From: Streptomyces poriferorum | Lineage (GTDB): Bacteria > Actinomycetota > Actinomycetes > Streptomycetales > Streptomycetaceae | DNA: 64,000 bases | Reading direction: 5' to 3' | NCBI RefSeq assembly: GCF_019399235.1 | Contig: NZ_JAELVH010000001.1 | Location: 1-64,000, forward strand | In this document: in pieces, positions 40,507-64,000 of the stretch | Numbering within the stretch: position 1 is the first letter of the stretch | How the letters are laid out: every line of letters begins with the position of its first letter | Program-made: the position numbers and the translations under genes | The notes under the pieces: generated by a model | The model's input: only the letters and a program-made list of their open reading frames with translations | What the model was told of the DNA's origin: nothing | Databases searched by the model: none

Positions 40507-40514
40507 CCCGGCGT

Positions 40515-41629: not shown

Positions 41630-42877
41630 TCACGCGAGGGCGCGGATCGCCTCGATGGTCCGGTCCACGCTGAGGGTCCCATTCGCGCAGTCGCGCAGCA
41701 GGGCCGTCACCCGTTCGTCCTGGTATTCGCGCAAAGGCTCGGGCGGGGCCTCGGGCGCTGTGGCTCGGGCGACGTCGTCGCGGGTCAGGAGGTAGTCCGC
41801 CAGGGCGGCGCAGGAACGGTGCTGGAAGATGATGTCCGGCTTGACCGGGACGCCGAGGACCGTCCCGGCCCGGCGGGCCAGGCGCACGTAGATGATGGAG
41901 TTCAGGCCGAGCTGCCGGAACGACGCGTCCTCGTCGAAGCCCAGCGCCTCGTCGCCGATCTCCGGCCGGAGGATCTCGCGCTTGATCCGCTCGATCAGGT
42001 CTCGGCGTGGGTCGGGCGCGGGTTCCTGCGTGGCGGTGATCCGGTCGATGAGCGAGGTGAGCACCTTCGATTCGCCCAGTTCCGTGAAAGCCGACACGCC
42101 CGCGTCCCGCAGATACCTGATGCAGTCGGTCCAGCGGACGGGCTTGGTGATCTGCTCAGCGAGCAGGTCGCGGACTTCCCGCGCATCGGGGCCGAACGGC
42201 CGGCCGGTCACGTTGGAGATGACCGGTGTCCGCAGTTCGCCCACGTCGACCGAGGCCAGCAGGGAGCGGAAGCGCGCGGCGGCCGGGGCCATCGCCGGCG
42301 CGTGGAAGGGCCCGCTGACTCGGATCGGGACGAAGCCTCGGACGCCCTCCACCTTCTCGAAGACCGGCTTGATCCGCGCCAGCTCCTCGCGGCTGCCGGA
42401 GAGCACGAACTGCTCGGGCGCGTTGTAGTTGGCGATGACGACGCCGGTGGCGTCGTGCTGCTTCAGCGTCTCCTCGACGGTCTGCGCGCAGATGCCGACG
42501 ACTGCGGCCATCGCACCGCCGCTGACGTGGCTCATCAGTTCCGCGCGGCGTTGCACCAGCGTCAGGCCGGTTTCGAAGTCGAAGGCGCCGGCCGCGAACA
42601 GCGCGCTGTACTCGCCGAGGCTGTGGCCCGCGAAGAAGTCCGCGGGTGGCAGGTCCTCCTGCGCCGCTGACCAGTGCAGCGCGTTGACGACGTAGATCGC
42701 GGGCTGCGCGTACACGGTGTCGGAGAGCCGTCGTTCCGGGTTTTCCAGGCAGAGCTCTTCGATCGGGTATCCGAGCACCCGGTCGGCGCGGCGACGGAGC
42801 TCGGGGAACCTTCCGAACAGGCTTCGTCCCATCCCCTTCTTCTGGGTGCCCTGTCCCGGGAACACGTAGCAGCGCAT
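41630..42877 (-). CDS. trans-acting malonyl-type acyltransferase fused to an acyl carrier protein
   Basis: A 415-residue protein. Residues about 1-285 are a FabD-like acyltransferase: VFPGQGTQKKGMG, nucleophile GHSLGE (Ser about 86), the QRRAEL Arg segment, and GPFHAPAM, the F that marks malonyl-CoA selectivity. Residues about 295-370 are a carrier protein with GLNSI (phosphopantetheine Ser about 327). A C-terminal tail of about 45 residues follows. ATG 42877 overlaps the KAS III-like stop (TGATG). The AT-less PKS proteins upstream, and the destroyed AT in the 52313-43938 protein, need such an enzyme, so it is expected to load malonyl units in trans. The attached carrier could hold its own malonyl or acyl group, perhaps for the KAS III-like partner. 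Confidence 0.88.
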   Translation of the reverse strand: MRCYVFPGQGTQKKGMGRSLFGRFPELRRRADRVLGYPIEELCLENPERRLSDTVYAQPAIYVVNALHWSAAQEDLPPADFFAGHSLGEYSALFAAGAFDFETGLTLVQRRAELMSHVSGGAMAAVVGICAQTVEETLKQHDATGVVIANYNAPEQFVLSGSREELARIKPVFEKVEGVRGFVPIRVSGPFHAPAMAPAAARFRSLLASVDVGELRTPVISNVTGRPFGPDAREVRDLLAEQITKPVRWTDCIRYLRDAGVSAFTELGESKVLTSLIDRITATQEPAPDPRRDLIERIKREILRPEIGDEALGFDEDASFRQLGLNSIIYVRLARRAGTVLGVPVKPDIIFQHRSCAALADYLLTRDDVARATAPEAPPEPLREYQDERVTALLRDCANGTLSVDRTIEAIRALA

Positions 42878-43941
42878 CAGATCCGCCCGCCCCCGAGGTC
42901 GAATCCGGCCGGCGGCGTCGGCCACTCGGGAAGCTCCGTGATCCGGACCACGGCGCACGTCCAGGTGAACCCGGCGCCGACGCCGAGCAGCATGCAGAGG
43001 TCGCCGACGGCTACGGCGCGCTCCTTTACGAGGTGTTCGAGTCCGGCGATCTGGTCGCCCGCGCCGAGGTGGCCGACAGTGCGGCCCCAGGACCAGGTCG
43101 TGAGATCGAGGTCGATATCGAGTGCGGCGAGGACCTCGCGCTGCAGCACGGTGCGTCCGAAGTGCGGAACGACGAACCGGGCGACGTCGCTCAACAGGAT
43201 GCCCGCGTCGTGCAGGGACCGCTTGACGCAGTCGCTGAGGCCGGCCCGGAATCGGCGGGTGAACTCGTCGAGCTCCACGTCTCCCAGGTACTGCAGTTTG
43301 CGCAGACGCAGGTCGATGGGGAGCGTGGGGTCGTGGTGCGGTGTGAAGGGCGCGTCGCCGCGATGCAGGCGCTCAAGGGTGGGATCCGAGACCGTGGAGG
43401 TGCTCAGCACCTGTGCGAACCCGGACCTCTTGCTGAGCACCATCGCCGACGCGCCGTCGCCGGGCACGATGCCGATGTCGCTGTTCCAGCGGTCGATCGC
43501 CGGCGGACTGACCTTGTCGGCGGTGGTCACGAGCGCCGCCACGTCGTCGGTGGCCGTGAGGGAGCGCGCCGCGATGTCCAACGCGGTCATGCAGCCGTTG
43601 GAAGCGTTCTTGACCTCGAAGGCGAGCGCCGAATGGTCCCCGAGCACTTCGCGGTGGATGTAGGAAGCCGTCGGGTAGAGCTCGAGGCCCTGGAAGTACA
43701 CGCAGGCGTGCAGCAGCAGCGCGATGTCCTCGGCCCGGTGGCCCGACCTTGCCAGGGCATCTCTGGCAGCGGCCACCGCCATCTCGGGCGGAGCCTCGTC
43801 CGTGGCCTCGCAGACGGACTCGAGCTGCGTGTCCTCGGCGTCCTGGGCATCGAACCGGCCGTCGGCGACGGCCTGTTCGACCTTGGTCGCCGGGGGCAGG
43901 TAGGTGGCGATACCCGCGATGAACAGGGCCTCTGTCTTCAC
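42877..43941 (-). CDS. KAS III-like enzyme with altered catalytic triad
   Basis: A 354-residue thiolase-fold protein of the 3-oxoacyl-ACP synthase III group. The nucleophile Cys is in ASNGCM (residue 117) and the first His in VPHFGRT (260). Where canonical FabH has Asn in a GNTSAAS-type motif, this protein has GHLGAGD with His at 291. KAS III homologues with changed triads are known to act as acyltransferases (ester or amide formers) in place of carbon-carbon condensing enzymes, so starter transfer or product esterification is as likely as chain initiation. It begins at a GTG that overlaps the PKS stop (GTGA) and ends in a one-base overlap with the AT-ACP gene. It has no signal peptide and should be cytosolic. 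Confidence 0.85.
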   Translation of the reverse strand: MKTEALFIAGIATYLPPATKVEQAVADGRFDAQDAEDTQLESVCEATDEAPPEMAVAAARDALARSGHRAEDIALLLHACVYFQGLELYPTASYIHREVLGDHSALAFEVKNASNGCMTALDIAARSLTATDDVAALVTTADKVSPPAIDRWNSDIGIVPGDGASAMVLSKRSGFAQVLSTSTVSDPTLERLHRGDAPFTPHHDPTLPIDLRLRKLQYLGDVELDEFTRRFRAGLSDCVKRSLHDAGILLSDVARFVVPHFGRTVLQREVLAALDIDLDLTTWSWGRTVGHLGAGDQIAGLEHLVKERAVAVGDLCMLLGVGAGFTWTCAVVRITELPEWPTPPAGFDLGGGRI

Positions 43942-46900
43942 TTCTCGTTCCCTCTCAGGGTGGTGGTGTCGTGGAGCAGGAGCCCGGCGATGGCCTCGGC
44001 GGTCGGGTAGTCGAACACCAAGGTGGCGGGCAGCGTGATGTTCAGCCGCTTGGCGAGGCGCTTGCGCAACTGGACCATGGTGAGCGAGTCGATCCCGAGG
44101 GAACGCAGTGCTCTGTCGGCCGGCACGCTGTCGGGTCCGGGCAGACCGAGCACGTCGGCGGCCTCGCTGCGGACGAGGTCCAGCAGCAGAGCCGCTCGTT
44201 CGGCTTCGGAGGCGTCCGCCATCCGCGTATCGAGCGACTGTGCGGGCTCGGAGACCTCGGCTCGGCGCCCCTCGGTTGCACGCGGCACCATGTCGCGCAG
44301 CAGGGGAGGCGCCTCCGCATCGCCGAGCGCGTGTCGCAACGACGCCAGTTCAAGGTGCACGGGCATCAGCTGGGTATCGGGCCGCGAAAGTGCGACGTCC
44401 AGGGCGTGCAGGCCCTCGCCCAAGGTCAGGGCGCCGATCCCCTGACGCCGCAGGCGTCCCAGCTCGGCCTTGCTGAGATGGGCGGTCATGCCCACTCCGG
44501 CCTGTTCCCAGAGCCCGAAGGCGAGGCTCAGTCCGGCCAGACCCCGCTTGCGCCGGTTCGCCGCCAGGGCGTCGAGCGTCGCGTTCGCCGCGGCGTACCC
44601 GCCTTGTCCCGCGGTGCCCAGCGTTCCGGCCGCCGAGGAGAAGAGTACGAACGCGGCCAGGTCCAGCTGCCCGGTCAACTCGTCCAGCAGGCGCGCGCCC
44701 TGGACCTTGGGTGCCATCACCCGGTGCAGCCGCTCAGCGGTGAAGCCCTGCACCAGGCCGTCGTCGAGCACGCCTGCGAGGTGGAACACGGCCGTGAGGG
44801 GATGGCGCGGGTCGATCCCTTCCAGTACTGGGGCCACTGCGGCCCGGTCCGCGACGTCGCCCGCGACCAGGTCCACCCGCTCGGCGCCCGCGGCTTCGAG
44901 TTCTCGCACGAACGAGCCGGCTTCGGGGGCGTTGCCACCGCGCCGCGACAGCAGCACGAGCCGCCGCACGCCGTGCGTGCGGACCAGGTGCGTGGCCAGC
45001 GCGCTGCCGAGCTCGCCGAGACCGCCGGTGATCAGCACGGTGCCGTCCGGGTCGAGGGCGCGTGGCACGGTCAGCACGGTCTTGTGCGCGGCATTCTGCT
45101 GCGCGTGGCGCAGGGCATACGGCGCGTCACGTATGTCGAAGGCGGTGAACGTCGCCTCGTCCTGCCGCGCGTCGCGGGGGGAGGGATCAGCGGCCGCCTG
45201 CGCGAAGGTGAGGTGCGCGGGCATCGGCCGGAGGACGGCAGCGTCCACGCTGATCCGGTTGCCGAGCGCGCCTGCCGCGCTGCCCATGACCCGGTCACCC
45301 TCGTGCAGGGAGGTGACGTCACTGCCGACCTCCATGACGATCCCCGCGAACTCCAGAACCTGTGCGTGCCCCGGGCTCATCCCGGCGGCGCGCACCATGA
45401 CGCGGACTTCCCACGGCCCGACCGGCTCCGGCGCGCCCTCGTCGTCCGGGGCGACGACGACGTCCAGCTGATCGTCTTCCCTCCGACGCACGTGCCAGCT
45501 GCCTTCGTCCGGCAGGACGAACGCGTCGGCCTCGCCGATGGTCGGCCTTGCCCGTGGCACGTGGGCGCTCTCGCCGCGCAGCACGCACTCCGGCTCGCCG
45601 CCGGTCTCGATCACGCGCGCCAGGAGCCGGAAGTCCGGGGCGCCTGAATCCAGGTCGATCAGGCGCAGGACGCGCTCAGGTTGCTCCGTGCGGGCCGTGC
45701 GCACCATGCCCCACACCGCGGACTGGGCCCAATTGCCTACCTGGTCAACAGGACTTGACGACACTGCGTCTCGGGTGATCCAGACGAGTTCCGCGCCCTG
45801 GAGCCGGGCATCGCCCAGGCACACCTGAAGCGTCCTCAGCGCTTCGGCGGCGCTGCGTTCCGCGTCGTACCACTGAGCGGACGCGCCGTCAGGCAGCGTG
45901 AACAGCAGTCGCCGAGGAGTGTCCGCCCGTACATCGAGCCACTTCACGAGGGCGTCCAGATCGGGTACGACGTCGGCGCCGAGCCCCGCGCCCAGCTCCG
46001 CGTCGCCGACCACGAGGGTGCCCGCAGGGTCGGAGGTTTCGGCCACGGGGTGTACGCGTTCGAAGCCGACGCGGTAGAGGTGCTCGGCGGCCGGGTGTCC
46101 GCGACGTCTGCCGCGCTGGAACTTGAGCCTGCCGATCCGGGCCACCAACTGCCCTGCCGGGTCCGAAAGCCATATGGAGGCAGGCGCGAGGCCCTCGTCT
46201 CCGTCGGGTTCGAAAGAAACCCGCACGGTCAGCTCTCCACCTGCGGCACGATACAGCTCGACATCCGGCCAGATGAACGGGACCAACGGCCCAGGAGCGG
46301 CACCCGCCTCCATCAGACCCGCGACGACGACCTGCAGTGCGGCGTCGAACAGTGCCGGATGCAGGCCGTGGCCGGCCGGATCCAGCGTGTCCGGAAGGGA
46401 TACCCGCGCGTAGTAGACGCCGTCGCGGCAGGCGAGTTCGCGCAGTCCTCGGAAAGCCGGGCCGTAGTCGAGCCCGTTCGCGAGGGCGCGTCCGTAGAAG
46501 GCTTCGATGTCGAGGGCCCGGGCATCGGACGGCCGGCTCCCGAGGTCCGGGGGCGGCATCGTGGCGTCGACGCGCACACCGGTCACGCACTCTCCGGTCA
46601 CGTGCTGCTGCCAGTTCAGCGGCTCATCCGTGTCCTCGGGCCGGCTGTAGAACGCGAAGGGGCGCCGTCCGTGCGCGTCCGGCTCGCCGACGGTGGCCTG
46701 GATCCGCAGCGCGCGGCCCGGAAGGAGGACGACCGGCTCCAGCAGCGTCACGTCCGCCACGGCCTCGGCGCCTGCGGCCCGGGCGGCGAACAGCACAGCG
46801 TCGATCAGGCCCGCGCCCGGCACGTAGACCTGCCCGCTGACGACGTGATCGGCCAGCCACGGGCACTCGTCGAGCGACAGCCGGCCCATGAACAGGTGAC

Positions 46901-49900
46901 CGCCGCTGCCGGCGAGAGTCGTGATCGCATCGAACCACGGGTGGCAGTACGGGGACTGATCGGCCGTCATCGCGGTGGGCCCGGCCGGAAGCTCGCCGAG
47001 CCAGAAGCGTTGCCGTTGGAACGCGTACGTCGGGATGTCGGCCTTGCCGGCGCCACGGGACCCGAGGACCCGCTCCCAGTCCAGGGGGAAGCCCCGTTCG
47101 AACAACGTGGCGGCCGCTCGCCAGAGCCGGTCCACCCCGCCCGAGACACCTTCGGAGGGTGGGACGACCTCCACGAACACTCCGAAGCCCTCGCCGCGCA
47201 GCCGCTCCAGCGCGCGGCCGAGCCTCATGGGCTCCGGCTCCGGCTCCGGCAGGTCTCGGAACCAGTAGTCGCCGCCGAGCTCCTGGGCCGGCACGACCTC
47301 GCCCGTCAGGCTCGAACAGAAGGGGACTGAAGCCCGGGCAGGGACAATCCCTGGAATCTCACCGCCGACCGCGTCCCCCGAGCGAACGCGAGCACGAAGG
47401 GCGATGACACGGGCGCCGTCCTCCAGGCTCAGTGCCCCGCTCACCACCGCAGCGGCGACCTCGCCCCGCACGTCGCCCACCACCGCCGCCGGCTCCACAC
47501 CCCAACTGCGCCACAGCGCCGCGAGTCCGAGGTATACCGCGAACAGCGTGCACGGCAGCCCGTCCGAGCTGTTCACGTCCTCCTCGCCGCGCAGCACCTC
47601 CAGCACGGACCAACCGGTCAACGGCGAGAGGACCGCGTCGCACTCCGCCACGGCGTCGCGGAACACCGCGCTCTGCTCCAGCAGTTCCCTGCTCGTCCCT
47701 GGCAGCTGCGCGTCCTGACCGCCGAACACGAAGGCGATCTTCCCCCTCGCCGTGCCGGAGCCGGGCTCGACCGCCCGCAGGGCTTCGGCAGCCTCCATGG
47801 CGCTGCCCGCGAAGACCACGGCGCGCGCGTCGAAGTGCGTACGGCCGACGGCGGAGGTGTAGGCGATATCCCGCATCGGCGCGGCGGGCCGCGCGTCGAA
47901 CCACTCGGCCCAGTGCTGTGCCTGCGCACGCAGGGCGGCCGCGTCGGTGCCCGAGATCACCAATGGGTGGACGAGACCGTCGCCGGGCCGGTCGACGACG
48001 ACGGTCGCCGGTGCTTCTTCGATGATGACGTGCGTGTTCGTGCCACTGATACCGAAGGAGCTGATGCCGGCACGACGCACCCGCCGGGTCCGCGGCCACT
48101 GCCGCGGCTGCCGCAGGAGCTCCAGTTCGCCGCCGGACCAGTCGATCCGGGTGCTCGGCTTCTCCGCGTGGAGAGTGCGGGGCAGCCACTCGTGCTGAAG
48201 CGCCATCACCATCTTGATGACCCCGATGACGCCGGAGGCCGCCTGGGCGTGGCCGATGTTGGACTTGGCCGATCCCAGGTGCAGGGGGCGCACGCGGCCC
48301 GAGAACACCGCGGCGAGGGCGCCGGCCTCGACGGGATCACCGAGCACGGTGCCCGTGGCGTGCGCTTCGACGACGTCGATGTCGGCCGGGGCCAGTCCCC
48401 CGTCGGCCAGGGCACCGCGTAGCACGCGCTGCTGCGCGAGACCGTTCGGCGCGGTGAGCCCCTGGCTGCGGCCGTCCTGGTTCATGGCGGTGCCCCGCAC
48501 AACGGCCAGTACACGGTCACCGTCGCGCCTCGCGTCCGAGAGGCGCTTGAGCACCAGGACACCGCAGCCTTCGGCCCAGCTCGTCCCGTCGGCGTCGTCG
48601 GCGAAGCTCTTGCAGCGACCGTCGGCCGCGAGCCCGTTGAGGCGGCTGAACTCGACGAAGATCTGCGGGGTGCTCATCACGGTCACTCCGCCGGCGAGCG
48701 CCAGGTCGCATTCGCCGCTGCTCAACGCCTCGCACGCCAGGCGCAGGGCCACGAGCGACGAACTGCACGCGGTGTCGATGGTGAGCGCCGGCCCGGACAG
48801 GCCGAGGGTGTAGGCCACGCGCCCGGAGATCAGGCTCGACCCGTTGCCAGTGATCTTGTAGCCGTCGCTGCTCCCGACGTCCCAGCGCCGAGCGATGTCG
48901 TAGTCCGAACTCATCGCCCCGAGGTAGACGCCCGTGTTGCTGCCTTCGACGGACGCGGCGGGCAGGCCGGCCCGCTCGAGTGCCTCCCAGACGACTTCCA
49001 GAACGAGCCGCTGCTGCGGGTCCAGGGACAGCGCCTCACGCGGGCTGAGCCCGAAGAACGCCGCGTCGAAGTCCTCGACGTCGCGTACGAAGCCTCCCTT
49101 GCGCTCGAAGCGCCTGCCGGTGGCGTCGCGCTCCGTGTCCTCGAGCGTGCTGAGATCCCACCCGTCCCAGCGCTGCGGGAACGGGGACGAGGCTTCGCGG
49201 CCGTCGACGAGGAGTTCCCAGAACGCTTCGGGCGTGTCGATCCCGTCCGGGAGCCGGCAGGCCATGGACACGATCGCGACGGGGTCGTCGTCGTCGGGCC
49301 GCCTGGGCACCGCGGCGACGGCGGTCGGGACTTCCGGGGTCTCGTACTGCGCATCGGCGTGCGTCAGCAGCAGTGTCGCGATCGCTTGCGGTGTGGGGTA
49401 ATCGAAGGCGAGCGCCATGGGCAGCGCGACCCGCGTCCGTGCGCTGAGCCGGTTTCGCAGCTCGACCACCATGAGGGAGTCGAATCCCTGGTCGCGCAGC
49501 GCCGTGCCGGGGCGCACGTCGTCCGCGGGCAGGCCGAGCAGGGCCGCCGCCTCTCCCGTGACGAGTGCGACCATCGATCCCAGACGCTCGGGTTCGGGCA
49601 GCGCGCTCACCTCCTCGCGCCACGCGGCGCCGTTGACGACCGGTACCGCGTCGTCGTGTTCGTCCAGCCAGTAACGGCGGTGTTCGAACGCGTACGTCGG
49701 AAGGTCCACCCTGCGCGCGTCAGTGGTCGAGAACACTCGCTTCCACGGGATCGGAACCCCTTGGACGTGCAGGTCTGCCGGCGCCCGCAGCACCTGCCCG
49801 ATCCCGCCGTGATCGCGGCGCAGGCTGCCCACCACGACGGCCGGCCCGTCGGCTTCGGTTCCCTGCGCCAGGGCTATCCCGAGCACCGGATGCGGACTCA

Positions 49901-52313
49901 CCTCGACGAAGACTCCGAACCCGTCCGCCCGCAGGCGTTCCAGCGCTCGATCGAAGCGCACCGGCTCGCGCAGGTTGCGGCACCAGTACTCCGCGTCGAG
50001 CTCCGGCCCGGCCGCCCGCTCCCCCGTCACGCTCGAATAGAAGGCGATCTCCGCATCCGCTGGGGAAAGGCCCGCGAGCTGCTCGCGCAGCGCGGGCAGC
50101 AGCGAATCCATGTGCGGGCTGTGCGACGCGTAGTCCACGTCCACGCGCTGGCAGTACGCGCCCGTGGCCTCCATCTGCGCGAGGAAGCGGTCCACCGCCT
50201 CGGTGTCTCCGGCCACGACGGTCGATCGCGCGGTGTTCACCACGGCAACGGACAGCGCCTCGCCGTAGGGCGCCAGCTTCTCGAGGACTTCGCCGACCGG
50301 GCGCTCCACGAGCCCCATCGCCCCGTCCGGCGCATGTTCGTGCACGGCCCGAGCGCGCGACGCCACGATGCGAGCGCCGTCCGCCAGGCTCAACGCCCCA
50401 CTGACGACCGCCGCGGCCACCTCACCCTGGCTGTGGCCGACGACCGCCGAGGGTTCGACGCCCCAGGCGCGCCACATCGCGGCGAGACCGACGTACATCG
50501 CGAACAACGCCGGCTGCACCACGTCCGTGCGCGTGAAGGGCGGCGCGAGACCGTCCTGCCCACGCACCACCGCGGCGACCGAGAAGCCGGTGTACGGGGC
50601 GAGGGCGTCGTCGCAGGCCGTCACGGCCTCGCGGAACGCGTCGTTCTGCTCCCACAGCGACTGGCCCATCCCCCACCATTGGGCGCCCTGGCCGGGGAAG
50701 ACGAACGCGACGCGGCCGCGACCGGCAGCCGCGCCCGTCACCACCGCGCCGTGGCTCTCGTCCGCGGCGAGCGCCCGCAGACCGGCCACCGCCTCGTCCG
50801 TCGTTTCGGCGATCACCGCGCCGCGCGTGGAGTGCTGCGTGCGGGTCGTCGCCAGCGAGTGGGCGACGTCGGACAGCCTCGTCCCGGGCGACTGCTCCAG
50901 GTGGCTCGCCAGCCGTGCGGCGTTGCGCGCGAGCGAGCGCGGGCTCGTGCCGGACACCGTCAGGCAGACCGGACCGCTCTCGTCCGGTGTGGCCCGTACC
51001 GGAGCGCCCTCGGGCGCCTCGCCGAGGGCGACATGCGCGTTGGTGCCGCCGTATCCGAAGCTGCTCACCCCCGCGAACCGCGGCCCGGCCGGCCACGTAG
51101 CTGCCTCGGTGACCACTTCCAGACGTTCGGCGGGGAAGTCGATGCGCGGGTTCGGCGTGCGAAAGTGCAGGCTCGGCGGGATGACGCCGTGGTGCACCGC
51201 GAGCGCGGCCTTGATGAGCCCGAGGGCGCCGGCCGCCGGTTCGAGATGGCCGAAGTTCGTCTTCGCCGAACCGATGCGCAGCGGCGTGCGCCGGTCGGGC
51301 CCGAACACGGTGCCGAGCGCGCTCGCCTCCGTCACGTCGCCCAGCGGCGTGCCCGTGCCGTGCGCCTCGACGTACGCCACCGCACGCGGCGGGACGCCGG
51401 CGTTCTCCCACGCCGAGCGCAGCACCTCCGTCTGCGCCTCGTGGCCGGGGGCGGTCAGTCCGTCTGTCGCGCCGTCGTTGTTGACCGCGCTGCCGTGCAC
51501 CAACGCGTAGACGCGGTCGCCGTCGGCGAGCGCGTCGGACAGCCGGCGCAGCACGACTACGGCGCAGCCCTCGCCCCGGGCGTAGCCGTCGCCGTCGCCG
51601 TCGAAGGCCCGGCACAGGCCGGCAGGGCTCTGCGTACCGAGTTTCGTCATGGCCACCGAGGTGTTCGGGTGCAGCATCAGGTTGACGCCGCCGGCCAGTG
51701 CGAAGTCCGACTCGCCGGAGCGCAGGCTCTGCACGGCGAGGTGCACCGCGACCAGAGAGGAGCTCGACGCGGTCGCCACGGCCATCGCGGGGCCCCGCAG
51801 CCCCAGGGCGTAGGCGATGCGGGACGGGATCACCGAGTTGTCCCAGCCGATGGCCGAGTGGGCGTGGATCGCCTCGGCGGCGCCCTGCGTGAACAGCGGG
51901 TACTCCTGCCACATCGCGCCCATGAAGACGCCGGTGCGCGTACCCGAGAGACTCGCTGTGGAACGCCGCGCGTCCTCGACGGCGGCACAAGCCACCTCCA
52001 GGGCGATCCGCTGCTGCGGGTCCATCTGCCGTGCCTCGGCCGGTGGGATGCCGAAGTGCTCCGCGTCGAATCCCGTGACGTCATCGAGGAACCCGCCTCG
52101 ACGGTTCGCCGCCCGGCCGGACGCCTCCGCGTCGGCCCATGCGGTGGCGTTCCACCGGTCGCTCGGCACCTGACGCACCGCGTCGACGCCTTCGAGCAGA
52201 GCCTGCCAGAGGCCGGTCGGGTCCTCGATCCGTGCCGGCAGCCGGCAACCGATGCCGACGATCGCGATCGGCTCGGGGCGGCCGTACGTCCGGCCGGCGG
52301 TCTGGTCAGTCAT
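43938..52313 (-). CDS. modular type I PKS: KS(Ser)-AT-ACP / KS-AT(dead)-DH-ER(remnant)-KR-ACP
   Basis: A 2791-residue PKS of two modules. Loading module: KS whose active-site Cys is Ser (TASSSS, residue 183), with HGTGT and NFGH intact; AT with GHSQGE (Ser 628) and YASH, the methylmalonyl signature; ACP Ser 946. A decarboxylating propionyl loader is likely. Module 1: normal KS (TACSSS, Cys 1183; HATGT; NIGH); an AT-like stretch with GDVRGE in place of GHSQGE and a large internal deletion; DH with HxxxGxxxxP (His 1823) and DAALQ; an ER lacking its nucleotide-binding core; KR with GGLGELG, LDD (B-type) and GYAAANA; ACP Ser 2743. The start overlaps the upstream PKS gene by 8 bases. Expected output: an alpha,beta-unsaturated acyl chain extended by a trans-supplied unit. 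Confidence 0.92.
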   Translation of the reverse strand: MTDQTAGRTYGRPEPIAIVGIGCRLPARIEDPTGLWQALLEGVDAVRQVPSDRWNATAWADAEASGRAANRRGGFLDDVTGFDAEHFGIPPAEARQMDPQQRIALEVACAAVEDARRSTASLSGTRTGVFMGAMWQEYPLFTQGAAEAIHAHSAIGWDNSVIPSRIAYALGLRGPAMAVATASSSSLVAVHLAVQSLRSGESDFALAGGVNLMLHPNTSVAMTKLGTQSPAGLCRAFDGDGDGYARGEGCAVVVLRRLSDALADGDRVYALVHGSAVNNDGATDGLTAPGHEAQTEVLRSAWENAGVPPRAVAYVEAHGTGTPLGDVTEASALGTVFGPDRRTPLRIGSAKTNFGHLEPAAGALGLIKAALAVHHGVIPPSLHFRTPNPRIDFPAERLEVVTEAATWPAGPRFAGVSSFGYGGTNAHVALGEAPEGAPVRATPDESGPVCLTVSGTSPRSLARNAARLASHLEQSPGTRLSDVAHSLATTRTQHSTRGAVIAETTDEAVAGLRALAADESHGAVVTGAAAGRGRVAFVFPGQGAQWWGMGQSLWEQNDAFREAVTACDDALAPYTGFSVAAVVRGQDGLAPPFTRTDVVQPALFAMYVGLAAMWRAWGVEPSAVVGHSQGEVAAAVVSGALSLADGARIVASRARAVHEHAPDGAMGLVERPVGEVLEKLAPYGEALSVAVVNTARSTVVAGDTEAVDRFLAQMEATGAYCQRVDVDYASHSPHMDSLLPALREQLAGLSPADAEIAFYSSVTGERAAGPELDAEYWCRNLREPVRFDRALERLRADGFGVFVEVSPHPVLGIALAQGTEADGPAVVVGSLRRDHGGIGQVLRAPADLHVQGVPIPWKRVFSTTDARRVDLPTYAFEHRRYWLDEHDDAVPVVNGAAWREEVSALPEPERLGSMVALVTGEAAALLGLPADDVRPGTALRDQGFDSLMVVELRNRLSARTRVALPMALAFDYPTPQAIATLLLTHADAQYETPEVPTAVAAVPRRPDDDDPVAIVSMACRLPDGIDTPEAFWELLVDGREASSPFPQRWDGWDLSTLEDTERDATGRRFERKGGFVRDVEDFDAAFFGLSPREALSLDPQQRLVLEVVWEALERAGLPAASVEGSNTGVYLGAMSSDYDIARRWDVGSSDGYKITGNGSSLISGRVAYTLGLSGPALTIDTACSSSLVALRLACEALSSGECDLALAGGVTVMSTPQIFVEFSRLNGLAADGRCKSFADDADGTSWAEGCGVLVLKRLSDARRDGDRVLAVVRGTAMNQDGRSQGLTAPNGLAQQRVLRGALADGGLAPADIDVVEAHATGTVLGDPVEAGALAAVFSGRVRPLHLGSAKSNIGHAQAASGVIGVIKMVMALQHEWLPRTLHAEKPSTRIDWSGGELELLRQPRQWPRTRRVRRAGISSFGISGTNTHVIIEEAPATVVVDRPGDGLVHPLVISGTDAAALRAQAQHWAEWFDARPAAPMRDIAYTSAVGRTHFDARAVVFAGSAMEAAEALRAVEPGSGTARGKIAFVFGGQDAQLPGTSRELLEQSAVFRDAVAECDAVLSPLTGWSVLEVLRGEEDVNSSDGLPCTLFAVYLGLAALWRSWGVEPAAVVGDVRGEVAAAVVSGALSLEDGARVIALRARVRSGDAVGGEIPGIVPARASVPFCSSLTGEVVPAQELGGDYWFRDLPEPEPEPMRLGRALERLRGEGFGVFVEVVPPSEGVSGGVDRLWRAAATLFERGFPLDWERVLGSRGAGKADIPTYAFQRQRFWLGELPAGPTAMTADQSPYCHPWFDAITTLAGSGGHLFMGRLSLDECPWLADHVVSGQVYVPGAGLIDAVLFAARAAGAEAVADVTLLEPVVLLPGRALRIQATVGEPDAHGRRPFAFYSRPEDTDEPLNWQQHVTGECVTGVRVDATMPPPDLGSRPSDARALDIEAFYGRALANGLDYGPAFRGLRELACRDGVYYARVSLPDTLDPAGHGLHPALFDAALQVVVAGLMEAGAAPGPLVPFIWPDVELYRAAGGELTVRVSFEPDGDEGLAPASIWLSDPAGQLVARIGRLKFQRGRRRGHPAAEHLYRVGFERVHPVAETSDPAGTLVVGDAELGAGLGADVVPDLDALVKWLDVRADTPRRLLFTLPDGASAQWYDAERSAAEALRTLQVCLGDARLQGAELVWITRDAVSSSPVDQVGNWAQSAVWGMVRTARTEQPERVLRLIDLDSGAPDFRLLARVIETGGEPECVLRGESAHVPRARPTIGEADAFVLPDEGSWHVRRREDDQLDVVVAPDDEGAPEPVGPWEVRVMVRAAGMSPGHAQVLEFAGIVMEVGSDVTSLHEGDRVMGSAAGALGNRISVDAAVLRPMPAHLTFAQAAADPSPRDARQDEATFTAFDIRDAPYALRHAQQNAAHKTVLTVPRALDPDGTVLITGGLGELGSALATHLVRTHGVRRLVLLSRRGGNAPEAGSFVRELEAAGAERVDLVAGDVADRAAVAPVLEGIDPRHPLTAVFHLAGVLDDGLVQGFTAERLHRVMAPKVQGARLLDELTGQLDLAAFVLFSSAAGTLGTAGQGGYAAANATLDALAANRRKRGLAGLSLAFGLWEQAGVGMTAHLSKAELGRLRRQGIGALTLGEGLHALDVALSRPDTQLMPVHLELASLRHALGDAEAPPLLRDMVPRATEGRRAEVSEPAQSLDTRMADASEAERAALLLDLVRSEAADVLGLPGPDSVPADRALRSLGIDSLTMVQLRKRLAKRLNITLPATLVFDYPTAEAIAGLLLHDTTTLRGNEK
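45080..45440 (-). other. truncated enoylreductase remnant inside PKS module
   Basis: The protein reads PWEVRVMVRAAGMSPGHAQ, then GIVMEVGSDV and GDRVMG (ER N-terminal half), and jumps soon after FAQAAA to FTAFDIRDAPYALRHAQQN (ER C-terminal end). The nucleotide-binding stretch of about 150-200 residues (GGVG-type motif) is absent, so it cannot bind NADPH. Confidence 0.75.
46980..47740 (-). other. degenerate acyltransferase domain in PKS module 1
   Basis: FVFGGQDAQ replaces FxFPGQGxQ, and GDVRGE replaces GHSQGE, so the Ser nucleophile is Val (residue about 1615). After the RARVRS segment the protein jumps to SVPFCSSLTGE, losing the YASH/HAFH region. The flanks still resemble the intact AT of the loading module, so it looks like a decayed cis-AT. 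Confidence 0.8.
49320..52313 (-). other. PKS loading module: KS(Ser), methylmalonyl AT, ACP
   Basis: KS about residues 15-440 with Ser183 in place of Cys, so it cannot condense but could decarboxylate, as KSQ loaders do. AT about 560-870 with GHSQGE and VDVDYASHSPHM, a methylmalonyl-type motif. ACP about 915-990 with DQGFDSL. Propionyl starter expected. Confidence 0.8.
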
Positions 52314-56814: not shown

Positions 56815-56839
56815 GATCAGTTCCTTCGAAAGGGCGCGA

Positions 56840-59800
56840 TCAGATCGCGAGCGCGGTCAGCTCTGCGGTGCGGGCGCGCAGCCGCCCCAGTTCGGCGCCC
56901 GGCGCCGTCGCCGGTTCCTGGGCATCGGCGGGCACAGCGTCCGGCTGTACGGCAGTGGGGAGGATGACTTCGTCGTCGCCCAGGACGATGCCCCGGTTGT
57001 TGAGCTCGGGACCGAACTTCATCAACGTCAGCCTGCTGACCGGCCCCGCGCACAGCCGTTCGATCGCCGCCGTCAGCTCGTCCGGCTGAATGAGCGGCGC
57101 CTGCGCTCCGACCAACGCGCCCCGCTCGCCCTCGGTGGGTGCGTTGTTGAAGCAGTAGCCCAGATTCAGCACCTTTCCGGCAGCGCCGTAGTGGCGTTGC
57201 AACGTCGGTGCGAAGGAATCGAGGAACGTGCAGGCGGCCGCGTAGTTCGCCTGCTTGATGGCTTTGAGGTAGGAGTTGATCGAGGACAGGAACAAGGCGA
57301 AATCGAGCGACTCTCCGCCGAACACCTGCATGCACCGGACGCTCGCGTCGACCTTGCCGCGCAGCACGTCCTCGAACTGCGCCTCGCTCATCCGCGCCAG
57401 GCTCGCCCCCGAGAACACCAGGCCCGAGTGGATGACGCCGTGCACCGCGCCGAACCGCCGGACGATCTCGTCCTTCGCCGCGCGCAGGGACGCAAGGTCG
57501 GTCGCGTCGGACTGCAGGTACAGCGGCGCAGGCCCGTCCGCGCCGGTCGACTGCGCGATGGCGGCCTCGACTCGCGCGTCCCGCGGCCTGCGTCCGAGCC
57601 ACACCACCTGGGCGCGGTACCGGCGGATCAAGTACTCGCTGATGGCCGTGCCTAGGGCGCCCGCCCCGCCGATGATGACGTAGGTGCCGCCCCGACGCAG
57701 CCGGGACGACGTCGGCGAGGCCGGCTGAACGGTCATCAGCCGCTGCCCGTGCCACCGGCCGTCGCGGTGGATACGCAGGTTGCCGTCCGGGTCCGCGGCC
57801 AGGTCGAGCACCGCGGTGAGAGAAGACGCGTCGTAGTCCTCGACGTCCGCCACCCGCACCCGCCAGTTCGGGTACTCCTTCGCAGCCGACCCCGCCAGAC
57901 CGGCGACACCGGCGTGCGCCGGGTCGACGACCTCGGCCTCCTGGACGGCGTGCGCCCGCTCAGTGATCAGGGTCAGGCCCAATGAGCGATCGCCGTACCC
58001 TGCGGCCAGAAGTGCTTTCACCGTGCGGAAGGCATGCAGCGAGCCGCTGGACTGGCCCTCGACGACGCGCGCACCGGACCGGTCATCCACGGCGCTGGGC
58101 GCCACCCAGATCAGATGGTCGAGTTCCGGGACCGACCGGACGGACTTCTCCAGATCGTCGTACGTACTCTGCGAAGGATCCGCGACCACGTGGGCGCCTG
58201 GACAGCGCGCGAGGAGAACGTCCCGCGCCTGCCCTGGGGGCGCGATGATGCCCACTGTTTCGGAACTCCGCGGCCACCTCGTGGATTCCGTCTGCCGAAG
58301 GGGGTCCCACACCGGCAGCAGCGTGACGGCGCCGCCGTCCGCCGGGTCCTGTGTCTGCTCGGCCCGACGGCCTGCGATGCCTCGCAGACGCAGGCACACC
58401 GTGCCGTCGTCGGTCGCGAGGTCGATGTCGATCCGCTCCGCGCCGCGCGTGTCCTCGGCGCGACGTACCAGGGCCCACATCGTGGTCGCGCAGGGGGCGA
58501 GGACTTCGGCCGATTTGATGGCGAACACCAACCCGGCCTGATCGCCGCCGTCGAGCAGTCGCATGCACTGCATCGCCGAGTCCACCAGCGCCGGGTGCGG
58601 GACGAGGCCGTCCATGGTTCCTGACGCCGCGCCGGGCAGCCGCAGTTCGGCGAGCACCGCGTTGTCGCTCCGATGCACCGCCACGACCCCCTGGAACGTG
58701 GGGCCGTAGTCAATACCGCGATCCCGCCACTCGGCGTAGAAGCGCAGGGGGTCGAAGCCGGTGGACCGGAAATCCCGAAGCAGCGCGGGCAGATCGAGCT
58801 TCTGCGCGGCCGTCGGCTCCGCAACGGACACCTCGCCCTGGCAATGGAGAACGGGCTCGTCTCCGGCGGACTCCGCCGAGGACACGCTGAACCGGGTCAC
58901 GTCGCCATCCGCGCGAAGAGCCACCTCCAGTGCGCGCGGCACGCCCGGGACCGCGAGGGGTCGCAGGAAGACGATGTCGTCCATGCGCACCGCGTCGCTC
59001 GCGGTCCGCCTCGCCGTCGCGGCGACCCACTGCAGATACATGGCCCCCGGGGCGATCCCGGTTCCCTGCACCTGGTGTTCACGCAGGTAGAACTCGTCGC
59101 CGGTGAGGACCACCCCATCGCGCCGCGGCCGGTCGTCTGCCGCCGCGCGGGCCGGCAGCGCATAGCGTTCCCGCTCGAAGGGGTAGCCCGGCAGCGGAAC
59201 GCGGCGGTAGCGGCGGTCGCGGAACAACTCGGCGAAATCCGGTGCCTCACCGTCGAGGAACTGTTGGGTGAGTGCCTGCAACCTGGCGTCCGCGCGCTGC
59301 GCCGGGCTGTCCTGCCCGGAGAGCCAGGCAGTGCACTGGTTCTCCAGTTCCGCGACATCCCCGACCACGCGCGCCCATCGGTGCCGCAGGTGCCTGCGGC
59401 CGAGCAGGAGTGTGTGGCTCACCTCGCCGGCGTCGAGGTCCGGGTGCTCGCGGCAGTGACGCGCGAGCCGGGCCACCTGTTCGCGCAAGGCTTGCTCCGT
59501 CGCCGCCGACAGCGCGATCAACCGGGCCCCGTCCTGCCTGCTCCGCGGCGGCGTGGGCGGCTTCGACGCCTGTTCGATGACGGCGTGGGCGTTGGTTCCG
59601 CTGGCGCCGAGCGACGTGATCGCGGCGCGCCGCCTGCCGCCGTCCGGCACGTCCCACCGCCTCGGCTCCGTGTGCACGAAGAACGGGCTGCCGGCCAACG
59701 TGACACTGGAGTTCGTCTCCGTGTGGTGGGGCAGACCGGGGATCATCTCGTGCCTCATCGCCAGCAGTGACTTGATGACGCCGATCACGCCGGCCGCGGC

Positions 59801-62800
59801 CTGCGCGTGGCCGATGGAGGCCTTCGTCGAGCCGAGCGAGCAGAACCGCTCGGCGTCCGTGAAGCCGCGGAACGCGCGGTCGAGCGCCCGGAATTCCACC
59901 GGGTCGCCGAGCTTGGTTCCGGTGCCGTGTGCCTCGACCAGTCCGATCCCCGCGGGGTCGATTCCAAAGTCCTGATAGATCTGCCGGATCAGCTTTTCCT
60001 GCGAGGTCCCGTTCGGCGCGGCGATCCCGTTTGTCGTGCCGTTGTGGTTGATCCCGATTCCGCGGATCACGCCGTGGATGTGGTCGCCGTCCGCCTCTGC
60101 GTCCGAGAGCCGCTTGAGGATCAGGGCACCGACTCCTTCGGCCGGCACGAATCCGTCGGCCGCCTGGTCGAACGAGCGGCACCGGCCCGCCGGGGAAAGC
60201 ATCCCGGCCCGCGACGCCGCCAGATACAGCCGCGGCGAGTTCTGGACGTAGACCCCGCCCGCGATCGCTGTGGTGACCTCGCCCGCCCACAGCGCCTGGC
60301 ACGCCAGGTAGAGGGAGACCAACGAGCTGGAGCAGGCGGTGTCGACCGCGATCGCCGGCCCGTGCAGGTCCAGGTAGTACGCGATGCGGGACGGCACGAG
60401 CGAGTTCATGTTGCCCCACAGTGCCTGGCCCGGGTAGTCGGCCGGCACCGTCAGATCCAGGTAGTCGCCCGCAGCGCAGCCCACGTAGACGCCGCACCGG
60501 TCGCGGTCGAGCGACTCGCCCGCGTGGCCCGCGTCCTCGAGCGCCCGCCACGCTTCCTGAAGGAACAGCCGCTGCTGCGGCTCCATGTAGACGGCCTCCG
60601 CGCCGGAGATCCCGAAGAAGAGCGGGTCGAACTCGTCGACGCCGTCCAGGAGACCGCCGTCCAGGCACACGCTGCCCAGCGACGCGAGGTCCCAGCGGGA
60701 CACCTTCGAGACGGCGTCCCTGCCGGAGGCCATCAGGTCCCAGAACTCGTCGGCATCCCGGGCGCCCGGAAACCGGCCGCTCATGCCGACGATCGCGACG
60801 GGCTCCCGGCCACCGCCCGACGGCCCGGATACCGCGCGCGGCCCGGATACCGCGGACGGCCCGGATGCCGCAGACTGCTCGGACACCGCCGACGGCCCCG
60901 GTATCGCGGACAACCCTGACACCGCCACCGACGGCTCGGGCACCGCGGCCACGATGGCGGCGCCCTCCTCGTCGAGGATGAATCGCGTCAGCCGCTTGAT
61001 GGACGGGTTCTCGAACAGCACGCTCGGATCGAGGCCGGTGCTCAGCGACTCGTTGAGCCGTTGCACCAGGGAGACGCCGGTGAGCGAGTCCAGTCCGTAG
61101 TCGGCGAAGGGCTTGTCGGCCGCGAGCTCATCCGCAGTCAGCTTCAACGTCTCGGAGAGGATCCGCTCGACGGTAGCGCGGACGTGATCCTCGACCGAAC
61201 CGGGCGCGGCAGGCCGCGGTTCCCGGCGCGAACCGGCGCGCGCCAGGATCACCTGCTGGCCCAGGACGCGGGCGGGCTCCGCCAGCAGTTCGACCGTGTC
61301 GAACCCGCACTCCCGCAACACTTCGCGCCACGAGTCCGAGGACAGCGCCGGTCCGCCCTGGATACGCCGTCCGTCCGTGGGCCGCCACCACCCTTCGAGA
61401 AGCCCGAAGGTCAGGTGCGACCACCAGTCGTTCCGGGCGAGCTCATTGAGTACGAGGACTCCGCCGGGCCGCAGCAGTGCTCTGGCATGGCGCACTGCCT
61501 GCACGATGTCCCTGGTGGCGTGCAGGACGTTGTTGGCGATGACGATGTCGTAGCCACCCACGGCAAGTCCCTGTGCGCCGGGCTCCCTCTCCGCGTCGAA
61601 GGTCGTGAAGGACAGGTACGGCACGTGGCCGGCGAACCGCCGCTCCGCGTCGATCAGGAACGCCTTCGAAATGTCCGTATAGCAGTACTCAGCGAGGTCG
61701 CGGCCCGTCAGCCGGGCGAAGACGCGCTCGCTGGTGCTGCCGGTACCCGCTCCGATCTCCAGCAGCCGGATCCCGGCGCGGCGACGGGCGTCCACCTCCG
61801 CGCGCACCGCGCCGGCCGTCACGTCGTTGAAGTAGTCGGCCGTCGCGTTCCCCCGGTACGCCGGTTCGACCAGCTCGAACGAGCCGCCGGGGAACATGAC
61901 CGCCGTGGCCTTCGTCCGCCCGGACAGGATCGCGGGCAAGGCCTCGATCATGCGCTCGGTCAGGCCGGTCTTGGCCGCCAGCTCAGGATCTCCGGCATGG
62001 GCGTCCTTCCACGCGCGCCAGGCGCGCCACGACTGTTCGAGGTCCGGCGCACTCTTCCCGGGTGCCACGAATTCGCCCTCACGCACGAGTTCTCCGTGGC
62101 TCAGCAGCACGGTCACCGTACGGTCGAGCCACTGTGCGAAGGACGGCGTGATCCCTTGCCCGATCAGGTCACCCAGGCCGCTCAGGTCACGGCGAACGGG
62201 CGCGTGGAAGAGTCCTGCCGCCACGAGCTGTGCGAGCACGAGCGGGCGCGAGAGGCTGTCCATCTCGTCTGTCGCGGACGTGCGACCGGACAGGAACGCT
62301 TCGACGCTCTCGGGCCCGGCCGCGGCCACGAGCGACGATGCCGCGTCGAGCGGTTCGGTGGCCCGGGAAACAGACACCGCCTCGGCGGTCGGCCAGAACC
62401 GTTTCGCAGCGAACGGATACGCCGGCAGGCTCACCCGCACCGGCGGGTTCGTGCCGTGGTAGGCGTGCCACTCGACGTCGATGCCGTTGACCCACAGGGG
62501 CGCGATCCTGTCCCACTTCCCGTGTTCGAGCCACCCGGCGACCACGTCTCGCAGCTCCCCGGGGCGATCGAAGAGGCCGAGCAGCTGGTCCTCGGGCCGT
62601 CGGGCCGTACCTTCGAACACCGCTCCGCGCGCCCCGCGCTCGACGTACTCCTGAAGGGTTGCGATCAGCCCGTCGACGTCGTTCGCGACGAAGACCACTC
62701 GTTCGGTCATCGCCCGCCGCCCGACCTGCAGCGTGTAAGCGAGCGACGCCAGATCGCCTTGCGCGTCCCGGTATCCCGGCAGGAACTCCAGAAGCTGCCG

Positions 62801-64000
62801 CGCGAGGACGCCGAGCCGCTCCCCATCACGGGCCGAGAGGACGACTGCTTGGGGTCCGGGTCGTCCGGCGGCCCGCGCACCGATCGGCGCTTGTTCCAGT
62901 ACCGCGTGCGCGTTGGTGCCGCCGATCCCGAAGGAGCTCAATCCGGCCCGCGCGGGCTCGTCGCCGTCCAGCGGCAGATTCCGGTCGGCCACGAAGAACG
63001 GCGACTCGTCCCACTCGATCTCCGAGCTCGGCACGTCGCAGTGCAGGGTCCGCGGAACCTCGCGGTGCCGCAGGGCCAGGGCCACCTTGATGAGGCCGGC
63101 GATCCCCGCGGCCGCGTCCAGGTGGCCGATGTTGCTCTTGACCGAGCCGATGCCGCAGTACTGGCTGCGTGCCGTGTGATGCCGGTACGCCTCGGTCAGA
63201 GCCGCAACCTCGATGGGATCGCCGAGCCTCGTGCCCGTGCCGTGCGCTTCGACGTAGCTGATCGTCGACGGGTCCACGCCCGCCTTGTCCAGCGCCTTGC
63301 GGATCACCTCGGTCTGGCCGCGCATACCGGGCGCGTAGAAGCCTGCCTTGTCGCCGCCGTCGTTGTTCACCGCGACGCCCCGGATCAGGCAGTAGATGTG
63401 GTCTCCGGCAGCGATCGCCTCACTGGCGCGCTTGAGGACGACCACGCCGACACCTTCACCGCCGGACATGCCGTCGGCGCCGTCGGCGAACGCGCGGCTG
63501 CGCCCGTCGCTCGAGAAGTTCAGGCCCGGCTGGTGCACGTATCCCAGCTCCCCCGCGGAGAACAGGCTGGCCGCGCCGACGATCGCCTGGTCCGCGTCGC
63601 CGGCCAGGAGTCCCTGACAGGCGACGTGCACCGCGCTCAGCGCCGAGGAGCAGTTGGTGCTCACCGCCATGCTGGGGCCACGCAGGCCCAGCTTCGTGGA
63701 AATCATCGTGGGTACCGTGCCGCCTTGCGCGAACAGCCAGGCGGCGTAGGTCTCAGAGCTCTCCAGGACCCGTGGGCCCGACGCGTTCGCCATCAGAGCC
63801 GGGAGCAGGGCCTGGTAGAAGTTCGTGCTGGTGGACGTGGTGACGCTGGTCTCGGGAACGTCCTCCGGGCGGTAACCGGCATCCTCCAGCGCCTGCCACG
63901 CGTGCTGCAACAGCAAGCGCGCCTGTGGGTCCATGAACTCGGCGTCGCGGGGGGAGATGTCGAAGAACGCCGCGTCGAACTCCGCCCTGCCGTCCACGAC
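56840..64000 (-). CDS. AT-less type I PKS, partial: KS-cMT-ACP / KS-DH-KR
   Basis: The visible 2386 or so residues begin inside a KS and run to a stop at 56840; the 5' part lies beyond the right edge. First visible module: KS with VSTNCSSALS (Cys present, usual Ala replaced by Asn), HGTGT and NIGH; a long trans-AT-style post-KS linker; a C-methyltransferase (LEIGAGTG, YCYTDISK, ANNVLHATRD); ACP (DYGLDSL). Second: KS (DTACSSS, HGTGT, SIGH), DH (HQVQGTGIAP, DSAMQ), KR (GGAGALG; SS and QANYAAA catalytic residues) and no ACP before the C-terminus. The missing cMT-ACP is the N-terminus of the next protein. No AT domain is present, so extender units must come from a free acyltransferase. Confidence 0.92.
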   Translation of the reverse strand, partial: VVDGRAEFDAAFFDISPRDAEFMDPQARLLLQHAWQALEDAGYRPEDVPETSVTTSTSTNFYQALLPALMANASGPRVLESSETYAAWLFAQGGTVPTMISTKLGLRGPSMAVSTNCSSALSAVHVACQGLLAGDADQAIVGAASLFSAGELGYVHQPGLNFSSDGRSRAFADGADGMSGGEGVGVVVLKRASEAIAAGDHIYCLIRGVAVNNDGGDKAGFYAPGMRGQTEVIRKALDKAGVDPSTISYVEAHGTGTRLGDPIEVAALTEAYRHHTARSQYCGIGSVKSNIGHLDAAAGIAGLIKVALALRHREVPRTLHCDVPSSEIEWDESPFFVADRNLPLDGDEPARAGLSSFGIGGTNAHAVLEQAPIGARAAGRPGPQAVVLSARDGERLGVLARQLLEFLPGYRDAQGDLASLAYTLQVGRRAMTERVVFVANDVDGLIATLQEYVERGARGAVFEGTARRPEDQLLGLFDRPGELRDVVAGWLEHGKWDRIAPLWVNGIDVEWHAYHGTNPPVRVSLPAYPFAAKRFWPTAEAVSVSRATEPLDAASSLVAAAGPESVEAFLSGRTSATDEMDSLSRPLVLAQLVAAGLFHAPVRRDLSGLGDLIGQGITPSFAQWLDRTVTVLLSHGELVREGEFVAPGKSAPDLEQSWRAWRAWKDAHAGDPELAAKTGLTERMIEALPAILSGRTKATAVMFPGGSFELVEPAYRGNATADYFNDVTAGAVRAEVDARRRAGIRLLEIGAGTGSTSERVFARLTGRDLAEYCYTDISKAFLIDAERRFAGHVPYLSFTTFDAEREPGAQGLAVGGYDIVIANNVLHATRDIVQAVRHARALLRPGGVLVLNELARNDWWSHLTFGLLEGWWRPTDGRRIQGGPALSSDSWREVLRECGFDTVELLAEPARVLGQQVILARAGSRREPRPAAPGSVEDHVRATVERILSETLKLTADELAADKPFADYGLDSLTGVSLVQRLNESLSTGLDPSVLFENPSIKRLTRFILDEEGAAIVAAVPEPSVAVSGLSAIPGPSAVSEQSAASGPSAVSGPRAVSGPSGGGREPVAIVGMSGRFPGARDADEFWDLMASGRDAVSKVSRWDLASLGSVCLDGGLLDGVDEFDPLFFGISGAEAVYMEPQQRLFLQEAWRALEDAGHAGESLDRDRCGVYVGCAAGDYLDLTVPADYPGQALWGNMNSLVPSRIAYYLDLHGPAIAVDTACSSSLVSLYLACQALWAGEVTTAIAGGVYVQNSPRLYLAASRAGMLSPAGRCRSFDQAADGFVPAEGVGALILKRLSDAEADGDHIHGVIRGIGINHNGTTNGIAAPNGTSQEKLIRQIYQDFGIDPAGIGLVEAHGTGTKLGDPVEFRALDRAFRGFTDAERFCSLGSTKASIGHAQAAAGVIGVIKSLLAMRHEMIPGLPHHTETNSSVTLAGSPFFVHTEPRRWDVPDGGRRRAAITSLGASGTNAHAVIEQASKPPTPPRSRQDGARLIALSAATEQALREQVARLARHCREHPDLDAGEVSHTLLLGRRHLRHRWARVVGDVAELENQCTAWLSGQDSPAQRADARLQALTQQFLDGEAPDFAELFRDRRYRRVPLPGYPFERERYALPARAAADDRPRRDGVVLTGDEFYLREHQVQGTGIAPGAMYLQWVAATARRTASDAVRMDDIVFLRPLAVPGVPRALEVALRADGDVTRFSVSSAESAGDEPVLHCQGEVSVAEPTAAQKLDLPALLRDFRSTGFDPLRFYAEWRDRGIDYGPTFQGVVAVHRSDNAVLAELRLPGAASGTMDGLVPHPALVDSAMQCMRLLDGGDQAGLVFAIKSAEVLAPCATTMWALVRRAEDTRGAERIDIDLATDDGTVCLRLRGIAGRRAEQTQDPADGGAVTLLPVWDPLRQTESTRWPRSSETVGIIAPPGQARDVLLARCPGAHVVADPSQSTYDDLEKSVRSVPELDHLIWVAPSAVDDRSGARVVEGQSSGSLHAFRTVKALLAAGYGDRSLGLTLITERAHAVQEAEVVDPAHAGVAGLAGSAAKEYPNWRVRVADVEDYDASSLTAVLDLAADPDGNLRIHRDGRWHGQRLMTVQPASPTSSRLRRGGTYVIIGGAGALGTAISEYLIRRYRAQVVWLGRRPRDARVEAAIAQSTGADGPAPLYLQSDATDLASLRAAKDEIVRRFGAVHGVIHSGLVFSGASLARMSEAQFEDVLRGKVDASVRCMQVFGGESLDFALFLSSINSYLKAIKQANYAAACTFLDSFAPTLQRHYGAAGKVLNLGYCFNNAPTEGERGALVGAQAPLIQPDELTAAIERLCAGPVSRLTLMKFGPELNNRGIVLGDDEVILPTAVQPDAVPADAQEPATAPGAELGRLRARTAELTALAI
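60820..60935 (-). repeat. imperfect Ser-Gly-Pro linker repeat in PKS gene
   Basis: Between an ACP and the next KS the protein reads as repeated SGPSAVS-like units (SAIPGPSAVSEQSAASGPS and on). The DNA shows an imperfect period of about 18-24 bases. It is a flexible interdomain linker. Confidence 0.6.

Follow-up and report, generated by a model that had tools for sequence, protein, structure and literature searches.

The first 64,000 nucleotides of contig NZ_JAELVH010000001.1 from Streptomyces poriferorum (assembly GCF_019399235.1), hereafter the window, carry a polyketide synthase (PKS) locus in which five genes on the minus strand run from contig position 67576, past the end of the window at 64000, down to 41630. 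In order, these genes encode an AlpA1-like protein, an AlpA2-like protein (P0002), an AlpA3-like protein (P0001), a KASIII-like protein and a free acyltransferase (AT) fused to a C-terminal acyl carrier protein (ACP). The locus looks like the alpiniamide (alp) cluster, and both that cluster and its hybrid cis-AT/trans-AT nature have already been published. Here, the dead AT in module 1 of P0001, its conservation and its possible cause are described and discussed.

P0001 (43938..52313) is 2791 amino acids long and has the order KS(S)-AT-ACP-KS-AT°-DH-ER°-KR-ACP, in which KS, DH, ER and KR are ketosynthase, dehydratase, enoylreductase and ketoreductase and the degree sign marks a relic. Pfam finds two KSs, two AT stretches, a DH, a KR and two ACPs in this protein, without a methyltransferase (MT). 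The loader KS (51024..52280) has TASSSS in place of TACSSS, a change of Cys to Ser, and retains both His motifs. As proposed in a preliminary description of the window, the loader is of the cis-AT kind with a methylmalonyl AT: the AT (49740..50717) is full length and intact, with the motifs GHSQGE and YASH, the latter being a mark of the methylmalonyl type. In module 1, the KS (47994..49292) keeps its active Cys and is DEBS/Lsd14-like. The AT that follows (AT°, 47094..47708) is indeed wrecked, as had been described, with the catalytic Ser lost (GDVRGE) and the small subdomain deleted; from the active-site motif to the YW block it counts 68 residues versus 147 in the loader AT, a loss of about 80 residues. 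The DH (46089..46952) has the motifs HxxxGxxxxP and DxxxQ, and the KR (44484..45101) retains its Ser/Tyr motif. Between them lies ER° (45129..45506), a relic of 126 residues of which Pfam matches only 30 residues of ADH_N at 25.2 bits. The preliminary description had overlooked the Cys to Ser change in the loader KS, the ER stub and the KASIII gene.

The AlpA1-like protein (56840..67576 of the contig, 3578 amino acids) is organized as C-A-PCP / KS-MT-ACP / KS-DH-KR, with condensation (C), adenylation (A) and peptidyl carrier protein (PCP) domains in front, and P0002 (52306..56814, 1502 amino acids) as MT-ACP-KS-ACP-TE, ending in a thioesterase (TE). The description of these two upstream proteins as AT-less and MT-bearing holds: Pfam places MT domains in both, and a genome-wide PF00698 search gave three AT stretches on the contig (49755-50705, 47382-47732 and 42047-42868) and no match in either of them. 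The free AT that had been placed in the same operon is the AT-ACP at 41630..42958, an AlpT homologue with DisD as its closest solved structure. Between it and P0001 lies the KASIII-like AlpE homologue (42877..43941), which is of the DpsC/CerJ kind; its closest solved structures are the daunorubicin KASIII DpsC, followed by CerJ and ChlB3. The TE of P0002 has Cys as its nucleophile (GGFCLGG), as in all five sequences examined. The A domain of the AlpA1-like protein has the code DILQLGLIW, as read by eye, which may correspond to a glycine code.

The lesions in P0001 were compared in ten Streptomyces sequences, S. poriferorum included, with pairwise P0001 identities of at most 94%, and in Actinokineospora inagensis DSM 44258, giving 11 sequences in total. 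P0001 can be aligned end to end in the nine other Streptomyces, at 83-91% identity to the S. poriferorum protein. Both the AT and the ER lesions are found at identical places in all ten Streptomyces sequences, and internal stops in none. At the active-site position of AT°, nine of the ten have GD and one (L035) has GH, and Ser is absent throughout; ER° measures 126 or 127 residues in each, versus 277 for the ER stretch of Actinokineospora. The loader AT motifs are intact in all 11 sequences, as are the Ser of the loader KS and, by the YASH motif, the methylmalonyl type of the loader AT. Since the ten Streptomyces sequences share both lesions without an internal stop, the lesions are no assembly artefact. 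They are old and fixed in the Streptomyces compared, not in progress. In S. longispororuber (G213; L040 4461-6980), a low-complexity repeat is inserted in AT° exactly at the site of the small-subdomain deletion.

A. inagensis carries the same five genes in a row, with identities of 59% for the large protein, 61% for P0002, 73% for the KASIII and 49% for the AT-ACP. Its P0001 is 67% identical over residues 16-1518. Module 1 in this protein has no AT at all: in the alignment, the KS linker passes directly into the post-AT linker, and Pfam finds one AT stretch, that of the loader. The ER is full length, matching both ADH_N and ADH_zinc_N. An intact module-1 AT occurs in none of the 11 aligned sequences, in a search for such a homologue that was not exhaustive. 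Because Actinokineospora lacks the AT while keeping the full ER, the module-1 AT is, among these sequences, gone or dead in both lineages, and the ER was lost only on the Streptomyces side.

Close orthologs of the AT-ACP (84-93%) are present in 4 of 294 other members of the genus, and a KASIII search of 396 genomes of the phylum, at E values up to 1e-100, gave matches only in the genome itself and in G056. A contig scan with a KASIII alignment gave eight named loci, seven from Streptomyces, among them S. microflavus, S. cyaneofuscatus, S. griseus NCTC13033 and S. longispororuber, and the one from A. inagensis DSM 44258; Streptomyces sp. IB2014/011-12, the strain of the published alpiniamide cluster, is absent from them.

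The origin of AT° was studied in an AT tree with the loader AT and AT° from four of the ten Streptomyces and the loader AT of Actinokineospora. AT° clusters with the loader ATs in a single clade (100/99), which falls within a methylmalonyl-type group whose members mostly carry YASH, and AT° is nearer to the Streptomyces loader ATs than the Actinokineospora loader AT is (95/84). AT° and the loader AT are 54-59% identical in nine of the ten sequences and 49% in S. longispororuber with its insert. Given the shared clade and the proximity to the Streptomyces loader ATs, AT° looks like a copy of the loader AT or a domain homogenised with it. Selection was measured on the ten Streptomyces sequences as the ratio of nonsynonymous to synonymous substitution rates (dN/dS). 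This ratio is 0.14 for the module-1 KS, 0.245 for the loader AT and 0.28 for the KR, and it reaches 0.39 for the DH (95% range 0.30-0.51), 0.41 for AT° (0.32-0.52), 0.52 for the KS-AT linker (0.32-0.84) and 0.75 for ER° (0.56-1.02). The AT° value is above that of the loader AT in 99.4% of 500 bootstraps, with a range still below 1. AT° is thus relaxed relative to the loader AT but not neutral, and ER° is close to neutral. An AlphaFold model of the module-1 KS and AT° from the 11 sequences was too poor to be used (pLDDT, the predicted local distance difference test, of 38.5), and a literature search on degenerate ATs or AT loss in trans-AT evolution gave nothing on point. Tandem ATs after one KS (ACP-KS-AT-AT-KR-ACP) were observed in three cis-AT PKSs (L052, L054 and L055), the first of each pair being without the GHSxG motif.

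The ancestry of the KSs was studied in a tree of 52 rows, reduced to 45 after removal of six cut-off KSs and one long row, with the labels cis and no-AT assigned from our own AT search. The P0001 KSs nest inside cis-AT groups (98/94 and 100/99), and the P0002 KS groups with no-AT KSs (99/98). In the large protein, the first KS, which follows the nonribosomal peptide synthetase (NRPS) module, falls in an uninformative group that mixes cis and no-AT KSs (two of each), and the second pairs with another long branch, so that its placement is unsure. A single clade for the 12 cluster KS rows from three genomes is ruled out by the approximately unbiased (AU) test (p 5.9e-96). A second AU test, framed after the tree was seen and leaving aside two cis KSs located behind NRPS modules, does not reject a grouping of the P0001 KSs with the remaining cis KSs (p 0.237). 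Comparison with solved structures by phmmer was made with chain 7zma set aside, a chain with two KS stretches that tops all five lists. The loader KS has CurL (422 bits) and the PikAI KS as best matches, with GfsA (383) above PksL (327), and the module-1 KS has Lsd14 and DEBS (545). The P0002 KS matches PksJ better (326 versus 251 for CurL), and the two KSs of the large protein match chains named hybrid NRPS/PKS (6mhl and 5elp) and PksL (423 versus 351 for CurL). PksJ, PksL, 6mhl, 5elp and DisD belong to trans-AT systems. The mosaic of cis-AT and trans-AT parts put forward in the preliminary description stands, because the P0001 KSs fall among cis-AT KSs and a single clade is rejected; it stands for P0001 as cis-AT and for P0002 as no-AT, and the KSs of the large protein remain mixed (the first) or unsure (the second). 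This supports a cis-AT protein that would work with trans-AT proteins. Outside the alp orthologs, the loader KS has its four closest relatives in cis-AT proteins from three other Streptomyces (two in G054 and one each in G251 and G284). All four keep Cys, so the Ser is likely derived here.

The published alpiniamide cluster is that of Streptomyces sp. IB2014/011-12 (Paulus et al. 2018; PMC6113372), with the genes alpA1, alpA2, alpA3, alpE and alpT. Paulus et al. noted the loader AT together with a Ser-bearing KS, the AT-ACP and a TE with Cys, and a construct lacking alpE gave no alpiniamides. S. poriferorum shares with that cluster the five core genes and their domain content, the loader KS with Ser, the methylmalonyl loader AT, the AT-ACP as trans-AT, the daunorubicin-like KASIII and the Cys TE. 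The two differ downstream of the AT-ACP, where S. poriferorum has a block of 4HFCP synthase, aldehyde dehydrogenase, alcohol dehydrogenase and methyltransferase genes and PMC6113372 has alpF and alpG, and in P0002, whose order is MT-ACP-KS-ACP-TE versus KS, ACP, cMT (the methyltransferase) and TE in the table of the paper. Table 2 of PMC6113372 gives the second module of AlpA3 as KS, DH, KR and ACP, with no AT, and the accessible part contains no mention of an AT or ER relic in module 1. The view of the preliminary description that no described cluster has such a layout is rejected, as the alpiniamide papers describe a matching one. The hybrid cis-AT/trans-AT label reportedly comes from Sigrist and colleagues in 2020, who are reported to attribute one of the halves to cis-AT chemistry and the second to trans-AT chemistry; the sequence evidence presented here points the same way. 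Two later papers summarise that work as two halves or chains that are made apart and then joined.

Alpiniamide A is C17H29NO6, with a 3-OH and a C4=C5 double bond in part A and a 3'-OH and an adjoining CH2 on the amide nitrogen in part B, and with four methyl branches in total, according to the accessible part of PMC6113372, from which compound and cluster function are taken; gene content, lesions, conservation and phylogeny are our own observations. The numbering in that part (C-8, C-9, C-7' and C-8') would place two methyls per part on the extender units. With a probability of roughly 0.68, the locus encodes an alpiniamide synthase in which module 1 is fed by the loader AT instead of the free malonyl AT, so that AT° became redundant. 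Alpiniamide is built of two halves around a glycine. Half B, with the glycine and two methylated malonate units, would be colinear with the large protein (56840-67576) in the order C-A(Gly)-PCP, KS-MT-ACP and KS-DH-KR plus MT-ACP, its last module being completed by the N-terminal MT-ACP of P0002 and malonyl coming from the free AT-ACP; both methyltransferases and the second KR would then be used as the structure of half B requires. Half A, with a propionyl starter and two methylated extensions, one dehydrated and one left as alcohol, would come from the cis-AT-derived P0001, which offers a single KR and a single DH, lacks a methyltransferase and has one working AT, of the methylmalonyl type. 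The loader AT would take methylmalonyl, which the KS(Ser) loader would decarboxylate to propionyl, and module 1 would extend, probably twice, with methylmalonyl placed on its ACP by the loader AT. The module-1 AT, a paralogue of the loader AT, would have been redundant and so died; in Streptomyces the ER would have been lost as well, which would account for the C4=C5 double bond. That the loader AT serves module 1, that module 1 iterates and that the events took this order is what we infer. The grouping of AT° with the loader AT, and the possible assignment of both methyltransferases to the glycine half, argue for the loader AT as the feeder of module 1. Both extender units of part A carry a methyl even though P0001 lacks a methyltransferase, which also makes the intact loader AT the likelier substitute for AT°. 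In the irumamycin PKS, the AT of a neighbouring module is presumed to act for a module whose own AT is inactive, much like the proposal here; unlike in alp, the accessible part of PMC11672594 mentions no trans-AT partner for that module.

Several points weigh against this reading, and some of them speak for the free AT. According to PMC6113372, AlpT provides modules 1 and 2 with malonyl, and the methyltransferases and the KR act across modules. The paper also reports incorporation of labelled methionine into the alpiniamides, though as a rise of the +1 peak (20 to 38.7%) and for 'at least some' methyls. The model also requires two rounds by module 1 and gives the KS-ACP of P0002 no extension to perform. 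In the AT tree, the branch leading to AT° is long (0.74), and the match to alp is one of gene and domain content. Under the rival account, module 1 receives malonyl in trans from the free AT, the built-in AT thereby became dispensable, and the methyls of part A are added by a methyltransferase acting across modules. In addition to the statements just cited, it would fit the AlpT homologue after the KASIII gene in all 11 sequences and DisD, a trans-AT, as the closest solved structure of the free AT. Yet P0001 has no methyltransferase, both methyltransferase domains can be accounted for in order by half B, and AT° groups with methylmalonyl-type ATs, so that a takeover by malonyl would also have altered the building block. 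Loading by the free AT is for these reasons a possible but rather unlikely cause, and the earlier idea that the AT decayed after the free AT took over is doubtful, as AT° groups with the loader AT and the lesions are fixed rather than under way. AT° probably died on account of its sister AT within the same protein, not on account of the free AT.

AT° might instead have been retained as a docking platform for the free AT, which would fit the purifying selection on it and the acyl-transferase docking domain 'AD' named in a figure legend in the accessible part of PMC6113372. But Actinokineospora manages without that AT, and the constraint on AT° is about equal to that on the KS-AT linker; with a structure model too poor to judge, such a scaffold appears improbable. 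Least probable by far is an assembly error, or simple decay of AT° and ER° in a single strain. The genome is a draft of 695 contigs and the upper bound for ER° exceeds 1, but the same lesions stand in frame in all ten Streptomyces, which refutes an artefact, and the range of AT° lies below 1 and resembles that of the DH.

Beside the alp genes, positions 37014-41435 (minus) encode an LCM-type methyltransferase, a Zn alcohol dehydrogenase, an aldehyde dehydrogenase and a 4HFCP (furan) synthase. Within the 3.5-9 kb available downstream of the AT-ACP, this block was found in only one (G052) of the ten other sequences, which suggests an accessory block, perhaps a separate furan pathway. An EF-hand protein is encoded next to the cluster at 36277-36819 (plus), and its neighbour in G052 is 93% identical. 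A separate NRPS cluster lies at 9533-35830 (plus), with a protein of 8011 amino acids that carries seven C domains, the same number of A domains and a TE. It also includes an MbtH-like open reading frame of 71 amino acids (33572-33787, recognised by eye), a P450 (33798-35045) and a gene without a Pfam match (35072-35830).

With about even odds, AT loss from a cis-AT module within a mixed cis/trans assembly line is recorded in the starter protein of alp: a paralogous methylmalonyl AT would have died because the loader AT could serve both ACPs. A relic under constraint would be what is left in Streptomyces, and Actinokineospora would show a clean excision beside an ER of full length, so that half A would carry the double bond in the former lineage and lack it in the latter. 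A. inagensis is accordingly predicted to make a reduced alpiniamide analogue. The remaining value of the locus is that one orthologous protein offers a natural series for the loss of an AT from a cis-AT module, running from an intact sister AT through a dead relic to clean absence. This series bears on which AT feeds an AT-less module and on where an AT can be excised harmlessly, which is of practical use for PKS engineering.

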